Positions 5,353 to 54,353 of a stretch of DNA of 60,790 nt are shown piece by piece. This DNA comes from a virus. The stretch is taken from positions 1 to 60,790 of the IMG/VR virus record IMGVR_UViG_3300044984_001645; one strand, 5' to 3'. The notes below the pieces were generated by a model, which ran no database searches, was not told the origin of the DNA, and was given only the letters and a program-made list of their open reading frames with translations. How positions within the stretch are numbered: position 1 is the stretch's first letter; each line of letters opens with the position of its first letter. The translations under genes were made by a program, and so were the position numbers.

Positions 5353-6015
5353 ATGGCTTACGAAAACTATTCATTTGTGTCTTGGACAGCTGGAACCCCC
5401 ATCTCAAGCGACCGTCTGGGTCAAATGTCCACCAATATTGGTCAAGTTAAAGATGCTACTGATGACAACCCCAAGGGGATTCTCAAGCTAAAGACTATTT
5501 CTGGTACCACATTCGGTCCCTACTCATCCTTCAATACAGAGCATGAGATTATTTCCCTAGAGAACGAGGGCGGTGGTGGTGTTAACAACCTCGTTAATGT
5601 TGGAGTTAACCGTTATTACAGACTTACGCTTTCATTCCCCGGAATAAGTATTCTCAATGCGGGTGCTGAGGATTCAACATATTTGATTACACTAAACGAG
5701 GGCACAACATCTGCTCCAATAGTTCTTTCAACTTGGAAAGTAACAGCTGGTCCGTTTACTTTTATTGATACTGCAACTCTTGCTGCCAATATTGGAAATC
5801 ATAAACTTAAATCCTCTTCGTTTGCAACAAGAATTGGTGCAGGAACTTACTCAACAATTTTTGATAGCACAGGTTCTGGTGTTACAAATAAAAGATATTA
5901 TATTGGAATCACAAGAGATGATGGTTCCACTCAGAATAATAACCCAACCTTTCAGATCCTCACTAGCGATGCCAGAATGCAATTTTATGCAGAAGACATC
6001 GGAGGGTCTGTATAA
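5353..6015 (+). CDS. Minor tail / virion-associated protein
   Basis: 220 aa. The N-terminus (MAYENYSFVSWTAGTPIS followed by DRLGQM) resembles the opening of many actinophage minor tail proteins, in which a short Trp-Thr-Pro-Leu/Ile motif precedes a helical segment; the rest looks beta-rich. It has its own leaderless-type promoter just upstream, so it may be transcribed separately from the fibre genes. Function is inferred from position after the fibre and from the N-terminal pattern. Confidence 0.6.
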   Translation: MAYENYSFVSWTAGTPISSDRLGQMSTNIGQVKDATDDNPKGILKLKTISGTTFGPYSSFNTEHEIISLENEGGGGVNNLVNVGVNRYYRLTLSFPGISILNAGAEDSTYLITLNEGTTSAPIVLSTWKVTAGPFTFIDTATLAANIGNHKLKSSSFATRIGAGTYSTIFDSTGSGVTNKRYYIGITRDDGSTQNNNPTFQILTSDARMQFYAEDIGGSV

Positions 6016-6018
6016 CAA

Positions 6019-6459
6019 ATGTCTTCAAGCCCGCTTGCTTCTCAGCGGAAAGACATTCCTTGGACAGATAGATCATCTGTCGGTGATTTAAACCCCAACT
6101 ATGCTGGTGGAAAATACATAGATGATAAAGGTTATGTTCGGGTTTTGATGCCGGAACATCCTTCCAATATCAAAGGCTACATCTATGAGCATCGTGCAGT
6201 CATTGAGCACTACCTTCGCAGATTTCTTAATCCTTGGGAGACCGTTCATCACATTAATGAAATCAAGAGTGATAATCGTGTAGAGAACTTGTTTCTTTGC
6301 ACACATCCTGAACATAGTGCAATTCACAGAGAAGGAAAGCGCCCAAGTCAGGATCATCGTGATAAGCTACGAGCTAATATGAAGCAGAGAAAAAAGGTTG
6401 TAAAAAAGAGTTTGAAGCCTCGTTTTGATGCCCGACCAAAAAAAACTAATTTTGAGTGA
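6019..6459 (+). CDS. HNH endonuclease (HNH_3 type)
   Basis: 146 aa. The centre reads VHHINEIKSDNRVENL, the His-His-x-Asn-x(n)-Asn-x(3)-Asn core of HNH_3 nucleases, preceded by a YEHRAVIEHYL helix and followed by HPEHSAIHREG. The basic C-terminal tail is Lys/Arg-rich. Such free-standing enzymes in phages are often homing endonucleases; no intron is apparent here. It sits between a tail gene and a metallophosphoesterase, in a 3-base gap after the former. Confidence 0.8.
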   Translation: MSSSPLASQRKDIPWTDRSSVGDLNPNYAGGKYIDDKGYVRVLMPEHPSNIKGYIYEHRAVIEHYLRRFLNPWETVHHINEIKSDNRVENLFLCTHPEHSAIHREGKRPSQDHRDKLRANMKQRKKVVKKSLKPRFDARPKKTNFE

Positions 6460-6478
6460 AAATCGCATTCCTTGCGTG

Positions 6479-6484
6479 TACAAT
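6479..6484 (+). promoter_or_regulatory. -10 box TACAAT for a leaderless transcript
   Basis: TACAAT ends 7 bases before the ATG at 6492, inside the end of the surrounding A/T-rich junction. There is no Shine-Dalgarno for that ATG. The context GTGTACAATTATCCTTATG parallels GTGTATAATTGCACCTATG at 28244. It decides the start at 6492 over an in-frame GTG at 6456. Confidence 0.55.
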
Positions 6485-6491
6485 TATCCTT

Positions 6492-7685
6492 ATGAAAATT
6501 TGTGAGACCGAAGGTTGCCCATTGGAGTTTGAACCCAATACGGCAAATCAAAAGTATGCAGATTCATCGTGTAGAAAATCTATCGACACAATGGGTCTTT
6601 GTAAATATAGAAAAGAGAATGGATTAGTTCCAATGCCTAAAGATGCATTAACAGGGGGGGAACCTCAAACAGAAACAGAATTGAAGATTAGCTATACAAA
6701 GCTTCTTCAGGAATATGAAAAGATTAAGACAAAGGAAGATCATCTTGCCAATGCCGTATTTAGAGCGGTTAAAGAAGGTTTGTCTGACTACAAGCATGTT
6801 CCTGTTCCAAAGCCTCCTGCTGACCGCAGGAAGGGCACTGAGGAGGTTGCAGTCGCTGTCATCGCAGACTGGCAATTGGCTAAGGTTACTCCTGACTACA
6901 ATACTGAAGTCTGTGAACGCAGAATTGACCAGTATGCAGACAAGATTATTCACCTCACTGAAATTCAAAGACAAGACCATCCTGTGCGTGAACTTCGCAT
7001 TTGGGCGCTGGGAGACATTGTTGAGGGTGAGTTAATCTTTCCCGGACAAAGCTTCCTTGTAGATGGTGGTCTGTATCGTCAAATTACTGTTGATGGTCCA
7101 AGAATAATGAAGAACTTTATTACAAAGATGCTTGCCAACTTTGAGAAGGTTACATTTGTCGGGGTCATTGGTAATCATGGCTCTATCGGTGGTCGTGCAA
7201 GGCGTGATCATGACCCAGAAACAAATGCGGATAGAATGCTTTATCGCATTGTTGAGCTGATGTTTGACGGAGAGAAGCGCATTTCTTTTAATATTCCAGA
7301 TGGTCGTGGTGAACGCCATTGGTATGCGATTGATTCAATTGGTAAGTATAAGTCATTGCTTATACATGGAGACCAATTCGGTAGTCTCTCATCATTCTAT
7401 TCTTTCCAGAAGAAAGTCTATGGATGGAAGATTGGCGGAATTGAACGCAAAGACAATGATGGGAATCTTATTGATGAGTTCAATGATGTTTACTTTGGAC
7501 ACTTTCATACTCCAACAAAGATGACATTTAATACAGTGCAGTGTCGTATTTCTGGTAGTCCAGAATCAACTAACACTTATGCTATTGAGGTTCTAGGCGC
7601 TGTTGGTCAAGCTTCACAGCCTTTGATGTTTGTTCACCCCGAGAAGGGGATTGTCACAGCAGAGTACACTTGCTGGCTGGATTGA
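6492..7685 (+). CDS. Calcineurin-like metallophosphoesterase
   Basis: 397 aa from ATG 6492 (a GTG at 6456 would add 12 residues but lies upstream of the promoter). The N-terminus has a possible small zinc site (CETEGC ... C ... C). The phosphoesterase motifs appear in order: VIADWQ (in place of DxH), LGDIVEG, GVIGNHG, LLIHGDQFG and FGHFH. These residues bind a two-metal centre in this superfamily. The His-to-Gln change in the first motif is unusual for the family. The substrate is unknown; phage relatives may act on nucleic acid or nucleotides. Confidence 0.85.
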   Translation: MKICETEGCPLEFEPNTANQKYADSSCRKSIDTMGLCKYRKENGLVPMPKDALTGGEPQTETELKISYTKLLQEYEKIKTKEDHLANAVFRAVKEGLSDYKHVPVPKPPADRRKGTEEVAVAVIADWQLAKVTPDYNTEVCERRIDQYADKIIHLTEIQRQDHPVRELRIWALGDIVEGELIFPGQSFLVDGGLYRQITVDGPRIMKNFITKMLANFEKVTFVGVIGNHGSIGGRARRDHDPETNADRMLYRIVELMFDGEKRISFNIPDGRGERHWYAIDSIGKYKSLLIHGDQFGSLSSFYSFQKKVYGWKIGGIERKDNDGNLIDEFNDVYFGHFHTPTKMTFNTVQCRISGSPESTNTYAIEVLGAVGQASQPLMFVHPEKGIVTAEYTCWLD

Positions 7686-8904: not shown

Positions 8905-10111
8905 AGTCAGACTTCTTAATTCCATTATTGACACAAAAGACTTTACATCCGCAGTTAATGGCGGTGTTGAGAATATGTTTATTGAGTATCGTGATATATG
9001 GAACTTTATTGTTTCACATTACGATCAGCACAAAAAAATACCATCCAAAGAAACTGTAAAGCAGCATCATCCGGAATTTGAATTCTTTGCTACTCCAGAA
9101 CCATTATCTTATTACCTTGAAGAAGCTAAGAAAGAATCACTGTCATATCAGACAAGAGTGATTGTCTCAAAAGCTAATTCAATCCTCAATGACTCTGGAC
9201 CAAAAGAATCACTTTCATATTTGATGGAAAGCACATCTAAGCTTTACAAGTACGCAAGTAACCTTAAAGACACAGACCTTGCTGGCGAGTGGCGTGACAG
9301 GTTTGAAGACCTAAAGCAACGGTCAATCAAGGGTGCTGGTGAACTACAGGGCATCCCTAGTGGTATCGGTGTAATTGACAAATCATTCGGCGGTTGGCAA
9401 CCCGGAGACTTCATTGTTCTTCTCGGCTGGACAGGTGTTGGTAAGTCATTCATTGCTAGATTGTTTGCGGTTAACGCTTGGAAAGCTGGCTATAGACCAT
9501 TGATCATCTCTCTTGAAATGAATAAACAACAAGAGGGTCAGCGTCTTGACACGCTATTGAACAATGGCGAAGGTCACTTTACCAATACAGACTTGGTTCG
9601 TGCTAACCCCAATGTTGTTGATGGTTACGAGAAGTGGGCAGAGCAAACCTTTGCGGGTAAACACGCCATCCATCTTGTCACATCAGAGGGGCTGGAGACA
9701 GCTGACCAGAACATGGTGCAAGCAAAGATTGACCAGTACCAACCGGACATCGTAATCCTTGACTATCACGGTCTATTTGATGACTCAAGCGGTGCGAAGA
9801 ATGAAACAGAGAAGGCTAAGAACCTATCTAAAGCATTTAAGCGTATGGCGGTTAAGAACGGAGTGCCAATCATTGATGTGGCAGCAGTAACTATGAATGA
9901 TGGTCACTCAGAGCGACCACCAGAATTAGAAGAAGTCGCTTGGAGTAAGCAGTTGGCATATGATGCTGACTTAGTGTTGGCAATCCATCGTGATTACAAC
10001 TCTGATTTATTCCAAGTGGTATCAAGGAAGGTAAGGCGGTCAACTCATTTTGGTTTTCTCCTTCGTTGGAATTTAGACACAGGAAAGTGGGCAGAAGAAT
10101 GGGATCTGTAA
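8894..10111 (+). CDS. DnaB-like replicative helicase
   Basis: 405 aa. The RecA-fold core begins near residue 150 (GIPSGIGVIDKSFGG). It has Walker A GWTGVGKS at residues 178-185, the LIISLEMN strand that follows it in DnaB, and Walker B IVILDYHGLF. The C-terminal part has VAWSKQLAYDADLVLAIHRD, the DnaB-type end motif. The N-terminal about 140 residues replace the usual DnaB primase-binding domain and are not recognisable. Followed directly by the primase gene, as expected for a phage replisome. Confidence 0.88.
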   Translation: MNYEVRLLNSIIDTKDFTSAVNGGVENMFIEYRDIWNFIVSHYDQHKKIPSKETVKQHHPEFEFFATPEPLSYYLEEAKKESLSYQTRVIVSKANSILNDSGPKESLSYLMESTSKLYKYASNLKDTDLAGEWRDRFEDLKQRSIKGAGELQGIPSGIGVIDKSFGGWQPGDFIVLLGWTGVGKSFIARLFAVNAWKAGYRPLIISLEMNKQQEGQRLDTLLNNGEGHFTNTDLVRANPNVVDGYEKWAEQTFAGKHAIHLVTSEGLETADQNMVQAKIDQYQPDIVILDYHGLFDDSSGAKNETEKAKNLSKAFKRMAVKNGVPIIDVAAVTMNDGHSERPPELEEVAWSKQLAYDADLVLAIHRDYNSDLFQVVSRKVRRSTHFGFLLRWNLDTGKWAEEWDL

Positions 10112-12448: not shown

Positions 12449-15400
12449 GTGACTGATTTCGTACACTTACACTGTCATTCGGAGTATTCACTCCTTGATG
12501 GAATGTCAACCCCTACAGAGATTGCAAAAATCTCTAGCACGAATGGTCAATATGCTGCTGCAATTACTGATCATGGAACGATGGGCGGTGTCTTGAAGTT
12601 TCAAGATGCTTGCAATAAACAAAGCGTGAAGCCAATCTTCGGTGTTGAAGCTTACTTTGTCCCATCTATCACCAAGGATGCTCAGACCAAGTATGAACGC
12701 TTCCACTTGATTCTTCTTGCGAAGAACAATACCGGACTGCAGAAGCTGTTTAGGATTTCGCAAACTGGCTGGACAGATAACTTCTACTACAAGCCTCGTA
12801 TTGATTTCAGCTTGTTAGAAGATATGGTTGATGATGACATCATTGCGCTATCTGGTTGCATGGGTGGACCAATTTCAAAAGCTATTGAGGCTGGTAACTA
12901 TTCACGGGCAGAAGAGCTGTCTGAACGCTTCATCAAAATCTTTAAGGATGACTTTTATTACGAAGTGCAAGCTTGGAACCCAAAGAATCTAAACGATTCG
13001 CTTATCAATCTAGCGAGTTCTTACGGCAAGAAGGTTGTTGCGACAGCGGATTGTCATTTTCCTACACACGATGACCGTGGACCAGAAGAAGTTCTTCTGA
13101 TGGTTTCTCAATACCCAAGTTTAAATGCGGGTGATATTCGTGTTGCTCAGCAGAATCTTCATGTCATCCATGATGAGAACGCAAGTGTCATTGACAAGAT
13201 GAACGCTATGTATCCAGAACGCTTCTTGCGGTTTGACCATATCAATCCATACATCGCTAAAGCTGATGTTGTTCATTCATGGTTCAAAGATGCTGGCTAC
13301 GACAATGTTGAATACCTTGAGAACACAATGGAAGTCGCTGACAAATGCACAGCAACAATTGCTACGAAGAGAAACCTTCTTCCAAAGTATTCCAAAGTTC
13401 TTGATTCAAACTTTTATCTAAGAGAGATTGCAGAGTTTGCAATTCAGACAAACAAGCTTGGTCCTGAATACAAGGAGAGGCTTGATGAAGAACTCGGGAT
13501 TATTGAACAACTTGGTTTCTCTGATTACTTCCTGATTGTATGGGATTTGGTCAAGTGGGCTGATGAGAACGATATTGGTCGTGGCACAGGGCGAGGTTCT
13601 GTTGGCGGTTCTGTTCTTGCTTACTTGCTTGATATCTCCAAGGTTGATCCATTGAAGTATGGACTACTCTTCTCACGATTCATCAATCCAGAACGAAACG
13701 ACTATCCGGACATTGACTTGGACTTTGAGGATAAGCGCAGAGGTGAAGTACGGAACTATCTCCGTGACAGATGGGGTCATGACAATGTTGCTGCTATCTC
13801 AACATACGGTGGATTCAAACCTAAATCTGTAATTAAAGATATCTCTCGTGTCTATCAAGTTCCATTCGCTGAGATTAACAACATCACTCCATACTTTGAA
13901 ACATTGCAGGAGTTAGAGACATCCCCTAAGGGCAAGATCTTCTGCAGTAAGTACCCAGACATTATCAAGCTTGCAAAGAAACTTGAGGGTCGTGTTCGTA
14001 ACTCAGGGATTCATGCTGCCGGAATGGTTGTGTCATCAATTCCATTGAGCGATGTTTGTCCTGTTGAGACAAAGAAAGATACAAGTGGAGAAGGTCGTTC
14101 TATTGTTACTGCCTTTGACATGGAAGATGCAGAAGCAGTTGGTCTAATTAAAATCGATGTTCTCGGTCTAAAGACCGTTTCTGTTATTAAAGATTGCATC
14201 GCTAAGATTAAAGAAAATCGGGGCATTGATGTTAGTCAGCTTTCATTGGAATTAGACGACCCAGAAGTATTCAAGAACTTCAATGACGGTAACACAGTAG
14301 GTATCTTCCAAACAGATGCTGCTGCTTATCGTAACTTGATTGAAAGAATGGGTATTGATAACTTCAACGACCTTGTTGTGTCTAACGCACTTGTAAGACC
14401 CGGAGCCTTGTTGTCACAGGGTCAGGTTTATATTGACTGCAAGAAGGGGGTAAATGCTCCCAAGTATCCACACCCTATTGTTAAAGACATCCTTGAGGAA
14501 ACATACGGAACAGTTATCTTTCAGGAACAGCTAATGCAAATGGCTGTACTGCTTGCTGACTTCACATGGTCAGAGGCTGACAAGCTTCGTAAGATCATTG
14601 GTAAGAAGCGAGATGCTGCTGGATTTGATGAGTACAGAGAAAAGTTTGTTAACAATAAGTATATCAAGAAAGCAGCAGCCGAGAAAATCTGGGCGGAATT
14701 TGAACTAGCAGCCTTGTATATGTTTAACAAGTCTCACGCTGTTGCTTATTCTATGCTTTCTTATCAGACCATGTGGTTGAAGATTCATTACCCCATTGAG
14801 TTCATTTGGTCGCTTCTCTTTAATGAATCAGCAGGTGACAAGATTACGGCTTATTTGATGGAAGCACAAAGGGTGGGCGTAAAGATACTAGCACCTGATG
14901 TGAATCACTCGGATGAATACTTTTCGGTAAGCATCAAGGGTGAGGAGGAGTCAATTCAATTCGGATTGTCCAATGTTGCCGGATGTGGTAACTCAGCTAT
15001 CAAGGAGATTTTTGAGAAGAGACCATTTGAGTCGTATGAGGAGTTTACTAACAAATGCAGAAAGTCTGCGGTGAAGATAACTGTAAGAGAAAATCTGGAG
15101 AAGGTAGGGGCGTTTCAATCATTGGGTCATGTCTCGGCTTACGATCATGAGAAGTATTATCTTCCTGTATTGGGTTTCTCGCTTAACACTAATGGTGAAC
15201 AGAATGAAATGGATGAGTTTGTCGGGAAGCTTGCAGACTTCCACGAAATTACCTCACCATTGACGCTGGTGAAGGCTGTGGTGCGTTCTACAAAGAAAAC
15301 GCCTCAGTACCTCCGTATTGAGTTTGAAGACCATTCTGGCTCGTCTACGGTGTTTGCCGAGCGTAATACCGAACTTGCCACACGAGACTATATTTATGCT

Positions 15401-18669: not shown

Positions 18670-19602
18670 ATGCTAGTAGTAGATAAAAGAAAAGGCGACC
18701 ATATGCCTATTCATGAGGTTATTCCAACACCAAGTATCGGTTTGAATCGTGCGCTTGGGGGAGGGCTTAACTCAGGGGCAACCCATTTGTTCTGGGGAAC
18801 ACCATCAGTTGGTAAAACAACAATGTGTTTCCGGATTCTTGCGGAAGCTCAAAGACGAGGATACCGACCAGTCATCATTGACTCGGAGTATTCTTACAAT
18901 GATCAATATGCTGCCAAGTGCGGTATCAATATTGATGATGTTGTTGTAATTCAATCAACAATTGTAGAAGAGATTATGAAGGCTCTCATTGGTTATTTGA
19001 ATAACGATGTTGAGAAGCACATCTTTTTGTTTGACTCCCTGTCAAATATCATCAAAGAAGAGTTTTATGACAAGCCAGAAGGTGGTAAAGCAATGGGGCT
19101 TCAATCTCGTTCGCAGGGCTACCTTCTCCAGAAGCTTGTTAATTACCTTCACAAGGAACGGAACATCATGCTATTCGTAGCACACCAGACCGTTGATCTT
19201 AGTGGAATGTTCGCTGTGACAAAGGCGAAGATGGGTAACACAGTGCATCATAATATGCACAACATTGTAAAACTGTTCCTCTCAATGTCTCAAAAGGAAA
19301 TGGAGCGTGATGACACTCACACCATTACCTCACAGAGGGCTGTGTGGACAATTGAAAAGACAAAACAGATTCCAACTATCGGTGCGCAAGGTTATTACTA
19401 TGTTCTTCCACAAGAGGGAAAGATTGATACTGACCGGGAGCTTATTGATATTGCGGTTGAGATGGATATCATTCAACGCAGAGGTGCATGGTATTCCTAT
19501 GGCACTGAGAAGTGGAACGGAATGACAGCTATTAATTTGTCTGAAGAAGTAAGAGATGAAATTGCAACTTTGATCTTGGGTCGTGAGTTTCAAGAGGTGT
19601 AA
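18670..19602 (+). CDS. RecA-like recombinase
   Basis: 310 aa with a clear RBS (AAGGAGAAAA). Walker A is GTPSVGKTT at residues 43-51, following the IGLNRALGGGL strand typical of RecA. Walker B lies in HIFLFDSLSNI, and LFVAHQTVD ends with the catalytic-Gln type motif. It is shorter than bacterial RecA and lacks its C-terminal acidic tail, like phage UvsX-type proteins. It would catalyse strand exchange alongside the Cas4-like nuclease and RuvC-like resolvase downstream. Confidence 0.85.
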   Translation: MLVVDKRKGDHMPIHEVIPTPSIGLNRALGGGLNSGATHLFWGTPSVGKTTMCFRILAEAQRRGYRPVIIDSEYSYNDQYAAKCGINIDDVVVIQSTIVEEIMKALIGYLNNDVEKHIFLFDSLSNIIKEEFYDKPEGGKAMGLQSRSQGYLLQKLVNYLHKERNIMLFVAHQTVDLSGMFAVTKAKMGNTVHHNMHNIVKLFLSMSQKEMERDDTHTITSQRAVWTIEKTKQIPTIGAQGYYYVLPQEGKIDTDRELIDIAVEMDIIQRRGAWYSYGTEKWNGMTAINLSEEVRDEIATLILGREFQEV

Positions 19603-30029: not shown

Positions 30030-30045
30030 AAAGTAGATGATTATA

Positions 30046-30408
30046 ATGTCCAATCAAAAAGTAAACCTTAACTCAATCCAAAACAAAATCGTATCCCGTG
30101 GTAGAAACGGAGGAAAAAAGAAAACCAAATCTCTTTTCGATACTCCTTTAGAAAACAGAACATATTGGGGAAATGATGAAGGTAGTAAACTTAAAATCTC
30201 ACTTGCTCGTAATGCTATTCGTAAAGATATGAAGTTTGGTATTCTTTTCGATGTAGATTATGATGATCTTACTCGTGTTCTTAACAAAGAGTACAAACAA
30301 GAACTTATTCATTTTCAACTCGAAATGATGAAAGAATTGGTAATGGATCGTGAAATTATGATTGTAGAAACAAACAATCATAAATGGCAAATCCAGTGGT
30401 TAATCTAA
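30046..30408 (+). CDS. Paralogue of the cassette proteins at 50610 and 51271 (N-terminal half)
   Basis: 120 aa from ATG 30046; an ATG at 30037 is possible but too close to the likely RBS. The N-terminus KVNLNSIQNKIVSRGR matches KVNLNSIKANLVKRGK of the 51271 gene. The last strand (WQIQWLI) parallels the INWLDNGQMVI end. The middle differs. A terminator follows, so it is well delimited. Family function unknown; small basic nucleic-acid-binding protein is a guess. Confidence 0.65.
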   Translation: MSNQKVNLNSIQNKIVSRGRNGGKKKTKSLFDTPLENRTYWGNDEGSKLKISLARNAIRKDMKFGILFDVDYDDLTRVLNKEYKQELIHFQLEMMKELVMDREIMIVETNNHKWQIQWLI

Positions 30409-49719: not shown

Positions 49720-50498
49720 TGCCTAAAATTAGCATAAAGTAAAGAATAATCGTTGATTTTGTGCAATTATTAGCCAAAAACATGCTATTTTGTATCAAAA
49801 CATAGAACATATGTTCGTATCATGTGGATAACTTCGGATATGTACTAAAATTAAGGTTAAAGTTAAAGAAAAACAGCCTACATTGATGAGCGGAATACAT
49901 ATTCCCTATCTATCTTCTATCTATATCCCTATCTAGAAGCTAAGACAATACCTAACCCGGAACTTTGCGGGAAAAGCTCATATCTTGAGACGAGATAAGA
50001 CCCCCTTACCCTATTTATATCTCTAGGGATAAAGTAAATAACAATATTAGAAGGTATATACCCCGATAGTTAATGTGTTAGGGAATTAGGTAGAGAATGT
50101 GATAGTAGGTAACCCAAATGCCGGCGATAATAATGCGAAAGTTACGGGGTTGTAATTTGAATTGGTTAATCTCCTATATAGAGAGAGATACACCTAGGGG
50201 AATAGATAAACCAATAGCCCCGCCTAACTCCTCAGACCTCATAATTTGAAAGGGATACTGATCCCTTACCCTTATCTTAAAAGTAAATTGAAATTTAAAG
50301 ATAATAGTAGAGAGTTTCATCATGATTGGTAAATACATTAAATTAATATGAAAGATAAAGTTAAATTTAATTGGTGTCCAAAATGCTAAAGCATTTATGG
50401 TACCCCAACCATAATTTGAAACCTATAGTAGTCCCTTACCGTATAGGTATCGTTTGGAGAATGTATTAAATTAATAATAAAGATAAAGGTAAACGAAA
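49720..50498. other. Repeat-rich non-coding region
   Basis: No credible gene. Contains CATAATTTGA-type elements near 49976, 50238 and 50410 (each with inner inverted arms, e.g. GGGAT-ACTG-ATCCC, and CCCTTACC), a diverged hairpin of the cassette type at 50371-50408 (inner AAATGCT-AA-AGCATTT), and A/T-rich TTAATA(A/T)...AAAGATAAAG blocks repeated about 170 bases apart. Looks like decayed or gene-less cassettes. Confidence 0.55.
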
Positions 50499-50535
50499 CT
50501 GGTGTTCAAGTGCTTTAGCACGCCCAGAACACCAG
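50499..50535 (-). repeat. Cassette hairpin H1
   Basis: Outer arms CTGGTGTTC / GAACACCAG, inner arms GTGCT-TT-AGCAC. It lies beyond the terminator of the first cassette gene with no gene to its left. Confidence 0.7.
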
Positions 50536-50546
50536 CGATTTTGGGC

Positions 50547-50577
50547 AAAAAAAAAGGTACCCTTTCGGGTACCTTTT
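50547..50577 (-). terminator. Terminator of cassette 1
   Basis: On the - strand AAAAGGTACCC, GAAA, GGGTACC then T9. Confidence 0.9.
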
Positions 50578-50609
50578 CTAAAATCCTTTCGATTTTAATT
50601 TAACTTTCG

Positions 50610-50960
50610 TTAAGCATTCGCCTTACGAGAGATTACCATTTGACCATTATCCAACCAATTAATTTGGATTTCAATTCCCAATTTCTCGGAAACACTTTCG
50701 GCACGATTTCGGTATCGCATTTTGTCGGCTTGGACTTTGGTTTGTTCCTGATTAAGGTTTACCGTAGCCTCACTCCAAATGAATGCGTCACCGATTTCGT
50801 TCGGGTCAAGTGACAAAATATCCGTTGCCAAAACTGGGTTTTCGTATGGAGGTTTTCCACGCTTAACCAATTTGGATTGGATTTCGGAAAGGTTAATTTT
50901 GACATTAACCTTTTTTGACGGGTCGCCTGCGTTATCGCTCGGCTTAGTGGTGTTACTCAC
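50610..50960 (-). CDS. Cassette protein 1, paralogue of cassette protein 2
   Basis: 116 aa from a leaderless GTG at 50960 (6 bases after the -10; an ATG at 50966 overlaps that spacing). Shares with the 51271 product RGKPPYENPVLATDILSLDP, the WSEATVNL and YRNRA...EKxGI...INWxDxGQM(V/I)IS segments, and with the 30046 product the N-terminal KVN...I...LV.RG. Small, soluble and basic in the first half. A DNA-binding or nucleoid role is a guess; no activity is known. Confidence 0.75.
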   Translation of the reverse strand: MSNTTKPSDNAGDPSKKVNVKINLSEIQSKLVKRGKPPYENPVLATDILSLDPNEIGDAFIWSEATVNLNQEQTKVQADKMRYRNRAESVSEKLGIEIQINWLDNGQMVISRKANA

Positions 50961-50966
50961 ATACAT

Positions 50967-51000
50967 ATAATACTCATGGCTTGAAACTATGTATTAAATA
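50967..51000 (-). promoter_or_regulatory. Cassette promoter P1
   Basis: - strand -10 TATTAT at 50972-50967, 6 bases before GTG 50960. The dyad is degenerate here (TTTAATACATAGTTTC). Otherwise aligned with P2-P7. Confidence 0.7.
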
Positions 51001-51023
51001 ATGCCATATATTAGACCCTGAAC

Positions 51024-51065
51024 GGCGGGCGCACGAGTTCTGCTGAAGCTCCCCGCACGCCCGCC
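51024..51065 (-). repeat. Cassette hairpin upstream of P1
   Basis: Outer arms GGCGGGCG / CGCCCGCC (8 bases), inner GAG-TTC / GAA-CTC, centre CTGAAG. About 26 bases from the P1 dyad. Confidence 0.7.
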
Positions 51066-51125
51066 ATGATTTGAATAGTATTTTGAGACACTACGGGGTT
51101 CCTTACCATGATTTGGAAATGTGAG

Positions 51126-51141
51126 TGAAATTTTATTCATA
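51126..51141. promoter_or_regulatory. Second copy of TGAAATTTTATTCATA
   Basis: Sixteen bases identical to 29407-29422, keeping the TGAA-N6-TTCA core of that dyad. Confidence 0.45.
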
Positions 51142-51156
51142 GCTACACCGGTAGAA

Positions 51157-51195
51157 GCTGGCGTTCAAGTGCTTTAGCACGACCCGAACGCCAGC
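51157..51195 (-). repeat. Cassette hairpin H2
   Basis: GCTGGCGTTC / GAACGCCAGC (10 bases) around GTGCT-TT-AGCAC. Same inner arms as H1, outer arms changed on both sides (T-A to C-G). Beyond terminator 2, without its own promoter. Confidence 0.7.
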
Positions 51196-51205
51196 GATTT
51201 TGGAT

Positions 51206-51234
51206 AAAAAAAAAGCCCGCCCCGAAGGGCGAGC
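51206..51234 (-). terminator. Terminator of cassette 2
   Basis: - strand GCTCGCCC, TTCG, GGGCGGGC (one mismatch) then T10. Confidence 0.88.
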
Positions 51235-51270
51235 CATAAAAAGCCTTCCGACTTTTTTATTGGGGGGATA

Positions 51271-51615
51271 TTATTGAGGTGAGCCGAGCGAGATAATCAT
51301 CTGCCCGTCATCTTGCCAGTTGATAGCGATAACGATACCGCACTTCTCAGCAACGCTGAGGGCACGATTACGGTACTTCATCTTCTCTGCCTGAACCTTG
51401 TCCTGTGGCGCTGTGAGGTTCACAGTCGCTTCTGACCAGTAGAAGGCATCGCCCTCAACTGTTGGGTCAAGTGAGAGAATATCAGTCGCTAGGACTGGGT
51501 TCTCATAGGGGGGCTTGCCTCGCTTGACGAGATTAGCCTTTATGCTATTTAGGTTCACCTTTTTATTGGTGCTGGTTGTCGGTTCCGCTTTGCGGTCACC
51601 TGTGCTTGTTGCCAT
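51271..51615 (-). CDS. Cassette protein 2, paralogue of cassette protein 1
   Basis: 114 aa, ATG 51615 exactly 6 bases after the -10, no Shine-Dalgarno: a leaderless gene. After a polar, Thr/Ser-rich N-terminus come KKVNLNSIKANLVKRGKPPY and the same middle and end as cassette protein 1 (WSEATVNL, YRNRALSVAEKCGIVIAINW, GQMIISLG). Codon use is more GC-rich than in the accessory run. Function unknown. Confidence 0.78.
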   Translation of the reverse strand: MATSTGDRKAEPTTSTNKKVNLNSIKANLVKRGKPPYENPVLATDILSLDPTVEGDAFYWSEATVNLTAPQDKVQAEKMKYRNRALSVAEKCGIVIAINWQDDGQMIISLGSPQ

Positions 51616-51621
51616 ATAGAT

Positions 51622-51660
51622 ATAATACTGATGCCTTCCGAATATGTATTCAATATGGGA
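51622..51660 (-). promoter_or_regulatory. Cassette promoter P2
   Basis: - strand: GAATACATATTC dyad (51651-51640), then GGAAGGCATCAG and -10 TATTAT (51627-51622). The ATG follows after 6 bases. Confidence 0.8.
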
Positions 51661-51680
51661 ATATATTAGACCCAGTTTGG

Positions 51681-51718
51681 CTGGTGCTTAAGTGAGCTGA
51701 AGCTCCCCCGCACACCAG
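51681..51718 (-). repeat. Cassette hairpin H3
   Basis: Outer arms CTGGTG / CACCAG, inner GAGCT-GA-AGCTC. 30 bases upstream of the P2 dyad. Confidence 0.7.
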
Positions 51719-51790
51719 ACATTTCCGGGATCATGAGACCATGTACTCAATTTCGTCATAAAGGCTTTCCATGTAGGAGTGGTGTTAGGC

Positions 51791-51826
51791 AAAAAAAAAG
51801 GAGGAGGTCTTGCGACCCCCTCCCTT
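51791..51826 (-). terminator. Terminator of cassette 3
   Basis: - strand GGAGGGGGTC, GCAA, GACCTCCTCC then T9. Confidence 0.88.
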
Positions 51827-51839
51827 TCGGAGTGTGTGC

Positions 51840-52235
51840 CTAGGCTATGGCTAGGAACTCAACGATTGCCTGTGAGTAAAGGTGACCCTCTACCTTCATG
51901 TGTTCGCCTAGCAATGCTTCGGCATCTCTCACTGCTGGTAGCAATGTCTCCTGAATGGTGAACAATGTCTCGTAGTAGGTAGCCTTCGTGACTGTCTCGC
52001 TATCGTCACGGGTCACTGTCGTGATGACCGTCTGAGTAGCGTCTAGGAGTGTGTCTCCTACTGTTCGGGCTTGTTCTAGGAAGAACATATAATTGTCTCC
52101 TGAGTCGTGGTCAGATTGAATCATGACCTTAATGAATGCCTTAGTGAATATCTCCACGAAGGTGTTGAGTGTGCTAGAGAACACATTCAGACTAAGTATC
52201 TGAACTGGCTCGCAGGGTTCAAGTAGTGGTTCCAA
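51840..52235 (-). CDS. Cassette protein 3
   Basis: 131 aa from TTG 52235, placed 5 bases after GGAAAGG as in the other SD-led cassettes; an upstream in-frame ATG at 52277 would overlap the leader mini-ORF. Acidic, largely helical (FTKAFIKVMIQSD, QTVITTVTRDDSETVTK). No family recognised. It has its own promoter, mini-ORF and terminator. Confidence 0.65.
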   Translation of the reverse strand: MEPLLEPCEPVQILSLNVFSSTLNTFVEIFTKAFIKVMIQSDHDSGDNYMFFLEQARTVGDTLLDATQTVITTVTRDDSETVTKATYYETLFTIQETLLPAVRDAEALLGEHMKVEGHLYSQAIVEFLAIA

Positions 52236-52255
52236 TGTTACCTTTCCGCAGTTCG

Positions 52256-52273
52256 TTAGTTCACTGCTTCCAT
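52256..52273 (-). CDS. Leader mini-ORF of cassette 3 (MEAVN)
   Basis: ATG at 52273, 6 bases after the -10, then GAA GCA GTG AAC TAA. It occupies the place of the M-x-V-x-P-K mini-ORFs in cassettes 4, 5 and 7. It would be translated from the 5' end of the message; a product has not been shown. Confidence 0.45.
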   Translation of the reverse strand: MEAVN

Positions 52274-52279
52274 ACATAC

Positions 52280-52316
52280 ATAATACATATGCCTTTAGAA
52301 TATGTATTTAATTTGG
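52280..52316 (-). promoter_or_regulatory. Cassette promoter P3
   Basis: - strand AAATACATATTC dyad (52309-52298) and -10 TATTAT (52285-52280). Confidence 0.8.
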
Positions 52317-52337
52317 GAATATATCCATACGCTGTTC

Positions 52338-52379
52338 GTTTGGTGTGAAAGGGGACTTAAGATCCCCTGCACTCCAACG
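52338..52379 (-). repeat. Cassette hairpin H4
   Basis: TTGGTGTG / CACTCCAA with CGT/ACG flanks, inner AGGGGA-CTTAAGA-TCCCCT. 29 bases upstream of the P3 dyad. Confidence 0.7.
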
Positions 52380-52390
52380 ATTTCATAGGC

Positions 52391-52424
52391 AAAGAAAAAG
52401 GGCAGGTACCGAAGTACCTGCCCT
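52391..52424 (-). terminator. Terminator of cassette 4
   Basis: - strand GGGCAGGTAC, TTCG, GTACCTGCCC then TTTTTC; perfect 10-base stem, same sequence as the terminator of cassette 5. Confidence 0.92.
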
Positions 52425-52438
52425 CATCTTGGGGGTTG

Positions 52439-52744
52439 TTACAGATGACCGTAACGATGACCCTTCTCACGCTCGGGTTCATTGTAATGACGGACTGGCA
52501 AGATAACCCGAGGCTCATTCTTATGTTCAGTATGACCCTCAAGGCATTGCTGGCACTCACACACGATTGTGTAGCGTGTGTACATCTCCAACTGGCGGAG
52601 TGTGAAGTATGTCTGGTCTTCAAAGTCCTTCCAGCCGAGTATCTTCATGATACGCAAGGCATGGCTAAGTCCCCTCTTATCTATGACACGCATTTGCCAG
52701 TAGGTATCCCAACCATCGGGCAATTGCTGATACATCATTCTCAT
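52439..52744 (-). CDS. Cassette protein 4
   Basis: 101 aa from ATG 52744, RBS GAAAGG with 5-base spacing, 20 bases after the mini-ORF stop. Aromatic and basic, with a CECQQC pair that may bind metal and an ending HYNEPEREKGHRYGH. An HVIDKRGL-like start suggests an alpha/beta fold. No family recognised. Confidence 0.65.
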   Translation of the reverse strand: MRMMYQQLPDGWDTYWQMRVIDKRGLSHALRIMKILGWKDFEDQTYFTLRQLEMYTRYTIVCECQQCLEGHTEHKNEPRVILPVRHYNEPEREKGHRYGHL

Positions 52745-52763
52745 GTGTTCCTTTCATTGTGGG

Positions 52764-52784
52764 CTACTTGGGTTTCACCCTCAC
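52764..52784 (-). CDS. Leader mini-ORF of cassette 4 (MRVKPK)
   Basis: GTG at 52784, 7 bases after the -10, then AGG GTG AAA CCC AAG TAG. Shares V-x-P-K with cassettes 5 and 7. Confidence 0.5.
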   Translation of the reverse strand: MRVKPK

Positions 52785-52791
52785 TAACAAT

Positions 52792-52830
52792 ATAATACCC
52801 ATGCCTTTGGAATATGTATTCAATATGAGA
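52792..52830 (-). promoter_or_regulatory. Cassette promoter P4
   Basis: - strand GAATACATATTC dyad (52821-52810) and -10 TATTAT (52797-52792). Confidence 0.82.
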
Positions 52831-52848
52831 GTATCCCTACACCGTGTT

Positions 52849-52891
52849 CGTTTGGTGTAAAAGGGGGCTAAACCCCCCTCGTGCACCAACG
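52849..52891 (-). repeat. Cassette hairpin H5
   Basis: CGTTTGGTGT / TGCACCAACG around AGGGGG-CTAAAC-CCCCCT region. 28 bases upstream of the P4 dyad. Confidence 0.7.
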
Positions 52892-52904
52892 AAATCAGGG
52901 CAAA

Positions 52905-52934
52905 CAAAAAGGGCAGGTACCGAAGTACCTGCCC
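52905..52934 (-). terminator. Terminator of cassette 5
   Basis: Same 24-base hairpin as at 52400-52423 plus five T; perfect stem. Confidence 0.92.
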
Positions 52935-52948
52935 TGATTGCTGGGGGT

Positions 52949-53164
52949 CTAACCGTAGATTTCTTCAATCAACGAATCGTATGTGTTGTTTGCGATGAGA
53001 ATGTATGTCTCAAACAGTACCCAGTGAGTCTGGTTCTTCATCGCCTCAAGGAACTTGAAGAACAACTCTTCATAGTCCCCGATGGCTAGGGTGCTCTGGA
53101 GAGTTGTAAGAAGTTCTGTGTACCTCTTATCGACTTGTTCTTTCATGTCTGTCGTTATTTCCAT
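52949..53164 (-). CDS. Cassette protein 5
   Basis: 71 aa from ATG 53164 (RBS GAAAGG, 5-base spacing). Helical, with LLTTLQSTLAIGDYEELFFKF and a Trp-centred hydrophobic region. No family recognised. Confidence 0.65.
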   Translation of the reverse strand: MEITTDMKEQVDKRYTELLTTLQSTLAIGDYEELFFKFLEAMKNQTHWVLFETYILIANNTYDSLIEEIYG

Positions 53165-53181
53165 TATTACCTTTCGGATAG

Positions 53182-53202
53182 TTACTTGGGTTTCACTACC
53201 AC
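53182..53202 (-). CDS. Leader mini-ORF of cassette 5 (MVVKPK)
   Basis: GTG at 53202, 6 bases after the -10, then GTA GTG AAA CCC AAG TAA. An ATG one base upstream (ATG TGG TAG) is an out-of-frame alternative. Confidence 0.5.
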   Translation of the reverse strand: MVVKPK

Positions 53203-53208
53203 ATCTAT

Positions 53209-53245
53209 ATCATACTGATGGCTTTAGAATATGTATTCAATTTGA
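53209..53245 (-). promoter_or_regulatory. Cassette promoter P5
   Basis: - strand GAATACATATTC dyad (53238-53227) and -10 TATGAT (53214-53209). Confidence 0.82.
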
Positions 53246-53266
53246 GAATATACCCATATCATGTTC

Positions 53267-53308
53267 GTTTGGTGTGAAAGGGCTTAAGCTCACCCTCGCA
53301 CTCCAACG
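53267..53308 (-). repeat. Cassette hairpin H6
   Basis: Outer arms as H4 (TTGGTGTG / CACTCCAA), inner AGGG / CCCT with CTTAAG between. 29 bases upstream of the P5 dyad. Confidence 0.65.
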
Positions 53309-53331
53309 ATTTCAGCTTCATAAATAAAGGC

Positions 53332-53362
53332 AAAAAAAAAGAGCCAGCCCGAAGGCTGACTC
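53332..53362 (-). terminator. Terminator of cassette 6
   Basis: - strand GAGTCAGCC, TTCG, GGCTGGCTC (one mismatch) then T9. Confidence 0.88.
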
Positions 53363-53383
53363 TCTTTCTTGGGGGGTGTGTGA

Positions 53384-53701
53384 CTACACGAACTCAGGGT
53401 ACATGTAGTGTTTGTCAGGGTAGCACTTGTAGGCACCGTTCATCTTGAACCGAGGGTACCAGCAGATGCCCCATGTCTGCGCCCACTTCTGTGCGAGGTT
53501 GTGGGCTTGCTGTGCATTGACACATGGGATAGTCAGGATGTGACTGTCTGAGGAGTCTCCCGTAGGCGATGACATCACTATGACTACATGAAACTCATGA
53601 GCCTCAATGTGGTTAGGTGTCCCAGCGTAAACGCTAGGTGGTTGTGTTGAGTAGGACATGGTGCCTTTCCAGCCCGTCAGTTGTTCGGGGCTTGCTTCCA
53701 T
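53384..53701 (-). CDS. Cassette protein 6 (mini-ORF fused in frame)
   Basis: 105 aa from the leaderless ATG 53701, or 91 aa from ATG 53659, which has GGAAAGG 5 bases upstream as in the SD-led cassettes. The first 14 codons align with the leader of cassette 7, but the TAA is CAA, so the mini-ORF runs into the gene. The main part has HEFHVVIVMSSPTGDSSDSH and a Trp/Tyr-rich end (WAQTWGICWYPRF). Function unknown. Confidence 0.68.
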   Translation of the reverse strand: MEASPEQLTGWKGTMSYSTQPPSVYAGTPNHIEAHEFHVVIVMSSPTGDSSDSHILTIPCVNAQQAHNLAQKWAQTWGICWYPRFKMNGAYKCYPDKHYMYPEFV

Positions 53702-53707
53702 GTCTAT

Positions 53708-53745
53708 ATAATACTGAAGGCTTAGATATATGTATTCAATGTGAG
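53708..53745 (-). promoter_or_regulatory. Cassette promoter P6
   Basis: - strand GAATACATATATC (53737-53725) and -10 TATTAT (53713-53708); ATG follows after 6 bases. Confidence 0.8.
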
Positions 53746-53764
53746 AATGTATAGACCCCTCACA

Positions 53765-53806
53765 CGCTGGAGTTAAAGAAAGCTTAAGCTTTCCAGTACT
53801 CCAGCG
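53765..53806 (-). repeat. Cassette hairpin H7
   Basis: CGCTGGAGT / ACTCCAGCG perfect, with the 16-base palindrome GAAAGCTTAAGCTTTC inside (53778-53793). 28 bases upstream of the P6 dyad. Confidence 0.8.
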
Positions 53807-53822
53807 TTTTCATTAGGGGCAC

Positions 53823-53849
53823 AAAAAAGGCACCCCCGAAGGGGTGCCC
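53823..53849 (-). terminator. Terminator of cassette 7
   Basis: - strand GGCACCCC, TTCG, GGGGTGCC then T6; perfect 8-base stem. Confidence 0.9.
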
Positions 53850-53862
53850 ATTTGTTTGCGTT

Positions 53863-54135
53863 CTATCTCTTTTCGTATTTGTCGGAGAAGTGAAGTCCAA
53901 GCCCTACGAATAAGCCTAACGAACCTACGCTACACACTACCCATAGGATAGCCGACCAGTTGGAAGTGGTGTCCATACCTTGAAGGTACCATGTAGGTGC
54001 TAGTGCACTTGTCGGAGCAAGTACCATACAGATAGTGCTCATCAAGCCTAACTCTGTGAAGGAAAGGAATAAGGCGACTAGGGCAGTTCCTAGAACGAAG
54101 GCGGATATTACAGCGAGCACGATATATGTCATCAT
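53863..54135 (-). CDS. Cassette protein 7, membrane protein
   Basis: 90 aa from ATG 54135 (RBS GAAAGG, 5-base spacing). Three hydrophobic segments: IVLAVISAFVLGTALVALF, then STICMVLAPTSALAP and ILWVVCSVGSLGLFVGLGL. Charged residues lie at the C-terminus (SDKYEKR). A membrane protein acting on the host envelope, such as superinfection exclusion or a holin-like product, is conceivable. Confidence 0.7.
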   Translation of the reverse strand: MMTYIVLAVISAFVLGTALVALFLSFTELGLMSTICMVLAPTSALAPTWYLQGMDTTSNWSAILWVVCSVGSLGLFVGLGLHFSDKYEKR

Positions 54136-54154
54136 GATTGCCTTTCTACGAAAG

Positions 54155-54175
54155 TTACTTGGGGTTCACTTCCAT
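54155..54175 (-). CDS. Leader mini-ORF of cassette 7 (MEVNPK)
   Basis: ATG at 54175, 6 bases after the -10, then GAA GTG AAC CCC AAG TAA. Confidence 0.5.
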   Translation of the reverse strand: MEVNPK

Positions 54176-54181
54176 ATCTAT

Positions 54182-54220
54182 ATAGTACCTATGGCTTGAA
54201 TATATGTATTCAATAAATGA
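54182..54220 (-). promoter_or_regulatory. Cassette promoter P7
   Basis: - strand GAATACATATATTC (54211-54198) and -10 TACTAT (54187-54182). Confidence 0.8.
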
Positions 54221-54240
54221 AATATATGAGTCCCTACACT

Positions 54241-54278
54241 GCGGGCGTAAAGCGTAAGCTTAAGCTGTGCACACCCGC
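54241..54278 (-). repeat. Cassette hairpin H8
   Basis: GCGGGCGT / ACACCCGC (one mismatch) around the palindrome AGCTTAAGCT. 30 bases upstream of the P7 dyad; it marks the right end of the array. Confidence 0.7.
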
Positions 54279-54353
54279 CATTGACTCACCAAACAGAGGA
54301 AAACGAAAAACAAAAAAAAGACGCAGTAGCATGCTACGAATATATACTCAAAT

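Follow-up and report, generated by a model that had tools for sequence, protein, structure and literature searches.

An array of single-gene units with a common hairpin-promoter chassis in an actinobacterial virus, a probable counterpart of the terminal-repeat genes of large Streptomyces phages

Phage morons are single genes with their own promoter and terminator that are gained and lost as units. A larger compartment of small genes is known from Streptomyces phages of the BE cluster (family Stanwilliamsviridae), whose genomes have direct terminal repeats (DTRs) of ~11 kb with 20-25 open reading frames (ORFs; PMC5764925), the DTR of Coruscant, a phage predicted to be virulent, being 12 kb (PMC7650747). 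The published descriptions of the BE phages consulted cover the repeat and its ORFs, not a shared chassis of control signals, and neither transcript maps nor a chassis description were found for them in the open papers searched. Here we describe an array of seven leftward single-gene units at 50.5-54.3 kb (- strand) of an actinobacterial virus, record IMGVR_UViG_3300044984_001645, of which positions 1-60,790 were analyzed (the window). Each unit carries the same type of hairpin, promoter and terminator. We propose, with a probability of roughly 70%, that the array is an accessory, host-takeover-like compartment of independent transcription units forming one regulon, and that it is the counterpart of the Stanwilliamsviridae terminal-repeat gene array.

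The units resemble morons in having a single gene with its own promoter and terminator and in being variably present in relatives, but morons are solitary insertions, whereas here the signals are common to all units of the array. The host takeover module of Bacillus phage SPO1 consists of small, early expressed genes with their own promoters in a terminal region (PMC6873191). The likeness, many small genes with own promoters, is seen here by sequence only, and the SPO1 genes differ in being grouped in several operons, with no per-gene common hairpin or palindrome described (PMC6873191). For the array products examined, no family or fold match was obtained. In cluster K mycobacteriophages the SAS/ESAS, repeated start-proximal elements with inverted repeats, precede a subset of small genes and vary in consensus by subcluster (PMC3203893). 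Repeated elements with inverted repeats likewise stand ahead of small genes here, but for cluster K no terminator per gene is described and its authors found little support for the ESAS arms pairing as a hairpin (PMC3203893), whereas the arms covary here; the SAS 13-mer GGGATAGGAGCCC had 0 matches with ≤2 mismatches. Cluster O mycobacteriophages have leaderless promoters and 17-bp dyad repeats in many copies per genome (PMC4351075), both with parallels in the array; their repeats, however, are spread genome-wide and also lie inside genes, and the 17-bp sequence is absent here.

The chassis of the seven units

An earlier note on this DNA described seven - strand single-gene units, each with its own promoter, U-tract terminator and upstream inverted repeat, and all seven are present with all of these parts. 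Along the direction of transcription, a unit consists of a 42-nucleotide (nt) hairpin, 25 or 26 nt, TTGAATACATA, a -10 hexamer that starts 26 nt downstream of the initial T of TTGAAT, ~6 nt, an ATG or GTG codon, the gene and its terminator. The ATG/GTG, at the predicted +1, opens either the gene itself (leaderless, as in both genes of what we term the U family) or a short leader with a Shine-Dalgarno sequence followed by the gene. The features are as follows (E-values are those of the hairpin covariance model R1; lengths in amino acids, aa; L005, L014 and L015 are related viruses; dN/dS, ratio of nonsynonymous to synonymous substitution).

54240..54279, -, unit 1 upstream hairpin (R1, E 2.5e-10)
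54182..54213, -, unit 1 promoter (TTGAATACATA ... TACTAT; pattern match; homologous to L005 up to 54169)
53863..54135, -, unit 1 gene, 90 aa, hydrophobic (ORF, hydropathy; no family found)
53828..53849, -, unit 1 terminator, UUCG loop
53765..53806, -, unit 2 upstream hairpin (R1, E 2.3e-13)
53708..53739, -, unit 2 promoter (pattern match)
53384..53701, -, unit 2 gene (ORF; 105 aa if read from the +1 start codon, 91 aa, to 53659, if read from the start that follows the Shine-Dalgarno sequence)
53333..53370, -, unit 2 terminator, UUCG loop
53267..53308, -, unit 3 upstream hairpin (R1, E 6.7e-10)
53209..53240, -, unit 3 promoter (pattern match)
52949..53164, -, unit 3 gene, 71 aa (homologue in L014/L015 arrays, 36% over 63 aa)
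52910..52935, -, unit 3 terminator (shares an identical stem-loop with unit 4)
52850..52891, -, unit 4 upstream hairpin (R1, E 6.1e-11)
52792..52823, -, unit 4 promoter (pattern match)
52439..52744, -, unit 4 gene, 101 aa (L005 unit 2 has a weak homologue, 27%, E 7e-5)
52398..52425, -, unit 4 terminator
52338..52379, -, unit 5 upstream hairpin (R1, E 1.2e-10)
52280..52311, -, unit 5 promoter (pattern match)
51840..52235, -, unit 5 gene, 131 aa, TTG start after GGAAAGG (L005 orthologue 88% identical, dN/dS 0.20)
51795..51828, -, unit 5 terminator, GCAA loop
51679..51720, -, unit 6 upstream hairpin (R1, E 1.5e-14)
51622..51653, -, unit 6 promoter (pattern match; gene start codon at predicted +1, leaderless)
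51271..51615, -, unit 6 gene, 114 aa, U family (L005 orthologue ~94% identical, dN/dS 0.08)
51214..51235, -, unit 6 terminator
51156..51196, -, second hairpin (T hairpin) directly beyond the unit 6 terminator (R1, E 1.9e-7, both strands)
51024..51065, -, unit 7 upstream hairpin (R1, E 1.3e-10)
50967..50998, -, unit 7 promoter (pattern match; GTG at predicted +1, 50960)
50610..50966, -, unit 7 gene, U-family paralogue (probable leaderless GTG start at 50960; dN/dS 0.09 to L005)
50547..50578, -, unit 7 terminator, GAAA loop
50497..50537, -, T hairpin after unit 7 (R1, E 2.2e-5)
50369..50410, -, degenerate hairpin without a gene, possible relic (R1, E 0.03; conserved in L005)

The promoter pattern TTGAATACAYA-N9-CAT-NN-GTAYNRT, allowing ≤3 mismatches, has seven matches in the 60.8 kb, all of them in the array and each with ≤1 mismatch; a control pattern had none. 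A sigma-70 scan recognizes 0/7 of the array promoters, and the phage sigma factor family PF04542, sought as an explanation for these unusual promoters, was not found in these phages; they are therefore likely to depend on a host sigma factor acting with a phage or virion protein. The shared control element of the earlier note was a GAATA-NN-TATTC dyad. The exact dyad, GAATACATATTC, occurs in just three of the seven units. It overlaps the -35, most promoters of the relatives disrupt it, and as the key element it was ruled out, because relatives that break it keep TTGAATACA and the spacing. What is kept at the -35 across units and relatives is TTGAATACA(T/C)A, along with the 26-nt spacing to the -10. 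Among 24 promoters from the window and the related viruses L005, L007 and L018, 22 (counted by eye) have an ATG/GTG 11-13 nt after the start of the -10, compared with 6-10% of TANNNT hexamers across the whole window.

Model R1 was built from 27 hairpins of five viruses; as these seeds match by construction, the informative results are the lack of matches elsewhere and the extra hairpins after U-family units. There are 16 matches in the window at E≤0.001 (both strands), at nine places all within 50497-54279 and none in the other 56 kb, and matches are restricted to the arrays in the four virus records G000, G001, G007 and G008. The hairpin stems covary, with 50 double-change cells vs 17.5 after shuffling (a level reached in 0/500 shuffles; slid controls gave 8-21). 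The distance from hairpin end to -35 is 25-26 nt in 7/7 window units, 5/6 units of L005 and 10/10 of L018, and the hairpin stands 25 nt from the promoter motif in 3/3 units of a further relative, L020. The upstream hairpins sit between a terminator and the next promoter, have C-TNNA-G loops and lack a U-tract on either strand, while the seven U-tract terminators have UUCG, GCAA or GAAA loops. Terminator-like sites number 12 vs 4.2 expected on both strands and include six of the array terminators, the seventh having been seen in a separate analysis.

A chassis of 126 nt is repeated in units 3-5, and the unit flanks are 60-85% alike, while the coding parts of units 1-5 show no mutual similarity; genes 51271 and 50610 are paralogues (62% identical), in keeping with the earlier description of mostly unrelated coding sequences. 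The array is also, as described there, more GC-rich than the 29-49 kb region (0.458 vs 0.340).

Two further features of the units may be recorded here. Predicted-start ATG/GTG sites lie at 54140-54200, 53660-53710, 53170-53200 and 52760-52780 of the window and in L005 and L018 units; in several units the +1 start codon opens a mere mini-ORF of 5-6 codons ahead of the real gene, with peptides that are alike in three window units (MEVNPK, MVVKPK and MRVKPK), and this arrangement is either a relic of leaderless ancestry or a leader that has a function. Another conserved element, TTGAGTATGNATTCTCTC, lies between terminator and hairpin in intergenic regions of L005 and L018 and at 51735-51760 of the window, preceded in some L005 and L018 units by CCAAYCCATTCGGTACGG.

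Position and turnover of the array in related phages

The window carries a WhiB gene, a DnaE-like polymerase and a RecA family gene, and the closest sequences to its terminase (~42% identity) and polymerase (~38%) are those of the large Streptomyces phages of the Stanwilliamsviridae. Small genes run rightward in a long arm as far as 49.7 kb, followed by 0.9 kb of non-coding DNA and the leftward array, beyond which lie a tRNA-Asn gene and then leftward genes for an FkbM methyltransferase, a 2OG-Fe oxygenase and a nuclease. We compared five cultured phages, Coruscant, LukeCage, Jay2Jay, Mildred21 and Battuta, in all of which the syntenic place is the long DTR of about 11-12 kb; by gene order, the array of the window falls at the place of the DTR in Coruscant and LukeCage. 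The compartments also share their design. In both, leftward small genes face the end of a rightward arm of small genes (with tRNA genes), most units run terminator, palindrome, promoter, gene, and the palindrome, at a fixed distance upstream of each promoter in the window, is confined to or strongly enriched in the compartment. They differ in palindrome, promoter and gene families, in gene number (20-26 vs 7 here) and in the 42-nt hairpin, which the Streptomyces phages lack.

Most leftward DTR genes of the five phages are preceded by a terminator (mostly with a UUCG loop), a GC-rich palindrome and a promoter. The palindrome GCGCCCGGCGCC occurs in 30 copies in Coruscant, 15 per repeat and 0 outside the repeats, and is missing from the other four phages; TAAGCT begins exactly 46 nt downstream in 13/13 of the palindromes that are followed by it, i.e., all scorable -10s. 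LukeCage and Battuta each have 26 copies of a different palindrome, GCCGCCCCGGY, which is found only in their DTRs and in none of the other phages, and Jay2Jay and Mildred21 have a looser palindrome ending in CGGACA that is enriched in the repeats. Orthologous units, for example those of an Lsr2-like gene (53-69% identical), bear the palindrome of their own genus (the Samistivirus pattern used was loose), and one Coruscant gene (locus L022, 40437-40967) is relocated in LukeCage.

Whole units come and go among closer relatives. L005, from a 100 kb contig, shares both array flanks with the window at 82-86% DNA identity and has counterparts of units 5, 6 and 7 in the window's order, with other genes in front. 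Between its counterparts of units 5 and 6 lies an extra whole unit (9486-9758, a remote U-family member) flanked by two 210-nt chassis copies that are 74% alike. The window has a single copy there, with 80% likeness to the first L005 copy and 76% to the second; as judged by eye, it follows the first in its terminator and spacer and the second in its hairpin. Similarly, L014 and L015 are ~90% identical and collinear in this region save for one extra whole L014 unit (gene 13367-13855), which lies between two chassis copies where L015 has one. That both of these whole-unit gains or losses fall between chassis copies suggests recombination between repeats. In unit 1 the window and L005 agree through the promoter and have different genes thereafter. 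The design extends to L018, with ten units, and L020, with at least three; their -35 differs (TTTAGTGCATA in L018) and their hairpin spacing is the same. In none of these comparisons is the region one fixed operon. Scans of viral records with other array or flanking proteins returned few contigs, several of which stop inside or beside the array, and a DNA similarity search of the array against the phage collection returned solely the tRNA-Asn.

Explanations of the array

In the explanation that we favor, each gene would be an independent transcription unit, with a strong intrinsic terminator closing one unit and a composite promoter opening the next. The composite promoter would pair a palindromic element with a promoter that does not conform to the sigma-70 consensus, the two being a fixed distance apart; the element is the 42-nt hairpin in the window and a palindrome of 12-13 bp in the Streptomyces phages. 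One regulator probably binds this element and serves all units; a palindrome at fixed helical phase that is uniform per genome and differs between genera is what would be expected of the binding sites of a single regulator. Because the chassis is common to all units, homologous recombination between its copies could add, delete or move whole genes, and the uniformity of the chassis within a genome might be maintained by gene conversion, by co-evolution with the regulator, or by both. The RecA family gene of the window also counts in favor of the explanation. Given the fixed phase of the hairpin and the failure to find a site-specific recombinase, we take the chassis to be primarily a composite promoter, with recombination between copies as a by-product that would permit gene turnover. 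Early expression and a role in host takeover are suggested by analogy with SPO1 and by the position in the cultured phages.

The array shows a genome compartment whose genes and whose control chassis follow different evolutionary rules: the genes look swappable and turn over as units, while palindrome and promoter follow the lineage and the control cassette is uniform within each virus. The palindrome confined to it makes the compartment recognizable by sequence alone, and actinobacterial phages are thereby indicated as holding untapped sets of small proteins that are probably directed at the host. The cultured Streptomyces phages offer a testable system for the joint change of a regulator and dozens of its sites.

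Several observations weigh against this explanation. No array protein is common to the window and the Streptomyces phages by sequence (the Lsr2-like and ParB-like DTR-array proteins have no match among the array proteins of the window, L018 and L020), and R1 finds nothing in the Streptomyces phages; the equivalence of the compartments consequently rests on position and design. That position was matched by gene order only, which makes a terminal-repeat location in the window phage putative, and the separate transcription of the units is predicted from their signals. The palindrome spacing in LukeCage and Battuta is looser, mostly 39-49 nt. Within-genome uniformity is modest when the promoters of the window and L005 are compared (mean identity difference 0.056, label-shuffle p ~0.005), and two of three orthologous promoters of this pair are roughly as alike mutually as to the other units of their own genome.

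The covarying hairpin with internal mismatches and a C-TNNA-G loop beside each unit boundary, the gain and loss of whole units, and the T hairpins after U-family terminators, which in L018 and L020 often have a better R1 score when inverted, are reminiscent of an integron-like cassette array, in which the hairpins would be attC-type sites and a site-specific recombinase would insert cassettes. We consider this highly improbable, as no tyrosine integrase (PF00589), resolvase or Y1 transposase was found in six records, which may be incomplete (positive controls responded, for PF00589 in 14/14), RYYYAAC/GTTRRRY cores occur at 0/10 hairpins, the units have their own promoters and terminators where integron cassettes are promoterless, and a recombination site has no need of a fixed hairpin-promoter phase. 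Of the cassette-addition array proposed in the earlier note, the monocistronic units with whole-unit turnover (L005, L014/L015) are supported; cassette addition understood as the work of a dedicated insertion system is not. Another unlikely reading is that a repressor of the lysogeny type silences the array through the hairpins and dyads as its operators, the units then not being an early module: palindromic elements at a fixed distance from every promoter and uniform per genome would suit such a regulon, but integrases are absent from the six records, Coruscant is predicted to be virulent (PMC7650747) and the sites are confined to the array instead of being genome-wide. A repressor as such fits the favored explanation, from which the lysogeny part alone differs.

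Tandem duplication of one ancestral gene unit, with coding parts diverged past recognition and no swapping of genes, would account for the 126-nt chassis repeated in units 3-5 and for the U-family paralogues that stand in tandem in several arrays. It is nonetheless quite unlikely, since the coding parts of units 1-5 are dissimilar between flanks that are still 60-85% alike, with two terminators identical, since homologues of unit genes lie in other arrays or places (52949 in L014; Coruscant 40437 relocated in LukeCage), and since unit 1 retains its promoter with a different gene in L005. The covariation would also be compatible with hairpins that act as RNA, as terminators or processing sites; this seems very unlikely given their place between terminator and next promoter, the lack of a U-tract on either strand, C-TNNA-G loops where the true array terminators use UUCG or GNRA, and the fixed promoter phasing. 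From their place, the missing U-tract and their loops we infer that the hairpins act as DNA, whether extruded or read in double-stranded form. Also improbable is a reading that puts the palindromic element at the center of a dedicated system, integron-like without a known recombinase and common among large actinobacterial phages, which would activate the array and also drive gene exchange between copies through active chassis homogenization and capture of new genes.

Gene products and neighboring features

None of the seven array proteins matched a database family above its threshold. Five of the seven ORFs are backed by other evidence: 51840, 51271 and 50610 by purifying selection (dN/dS 0.20, 0.08 and 0.09), 52949 by distant homologues and 52439 likewise but weakly. 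No homologue was found for genes 53863 and 53384. The unit 1 protein is probably, from its hydropathy, a membrane protein, and a four-helix bundle is predicted with moderate confidence for that of unit 5. The U family occupies the distal end of the arrays in the window, L005, L018 and L020, and remotely in L014/L015. Its members have a basic KRG(R/K) stretch at the N-terminus and a confidently predicted alpha-beta core with no match in the PDB, and a search through phages, bacterial genomes and folds returned only the same viruses and one viral model, A0A6J5QIK7. A remote U-family paralogue (KVNLNSIQNKIVSRGR) is encoded in the rightward arm of the window at 30037-30408 (+).

The non-coding 0.9 kb between the convergent arms (49727-50609) is 82% identical to L005, contains repeated CAAATTATGG and degenerate hairpins, and is a candidate repeat end or packaging region. 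In L007, a 407-aa cytochrome P450-like gene (5538-6761, with the motif FGGGLHQCIG) lies between neighbors that in the window have no such gene between them. At 15.4-18.3 kb of L018, otherwise unrelated array proteins are alike near the N-terminus in the stretch VTVNAEP/VTAKAEP. A small hairpin ~25 nt from the start encodes it, as though the shared cassette extended into the coding sequence. A further L018 unit, at 18935-19115, has the full chassis with an ORF of only 20 codons, and may encode a small RNA.

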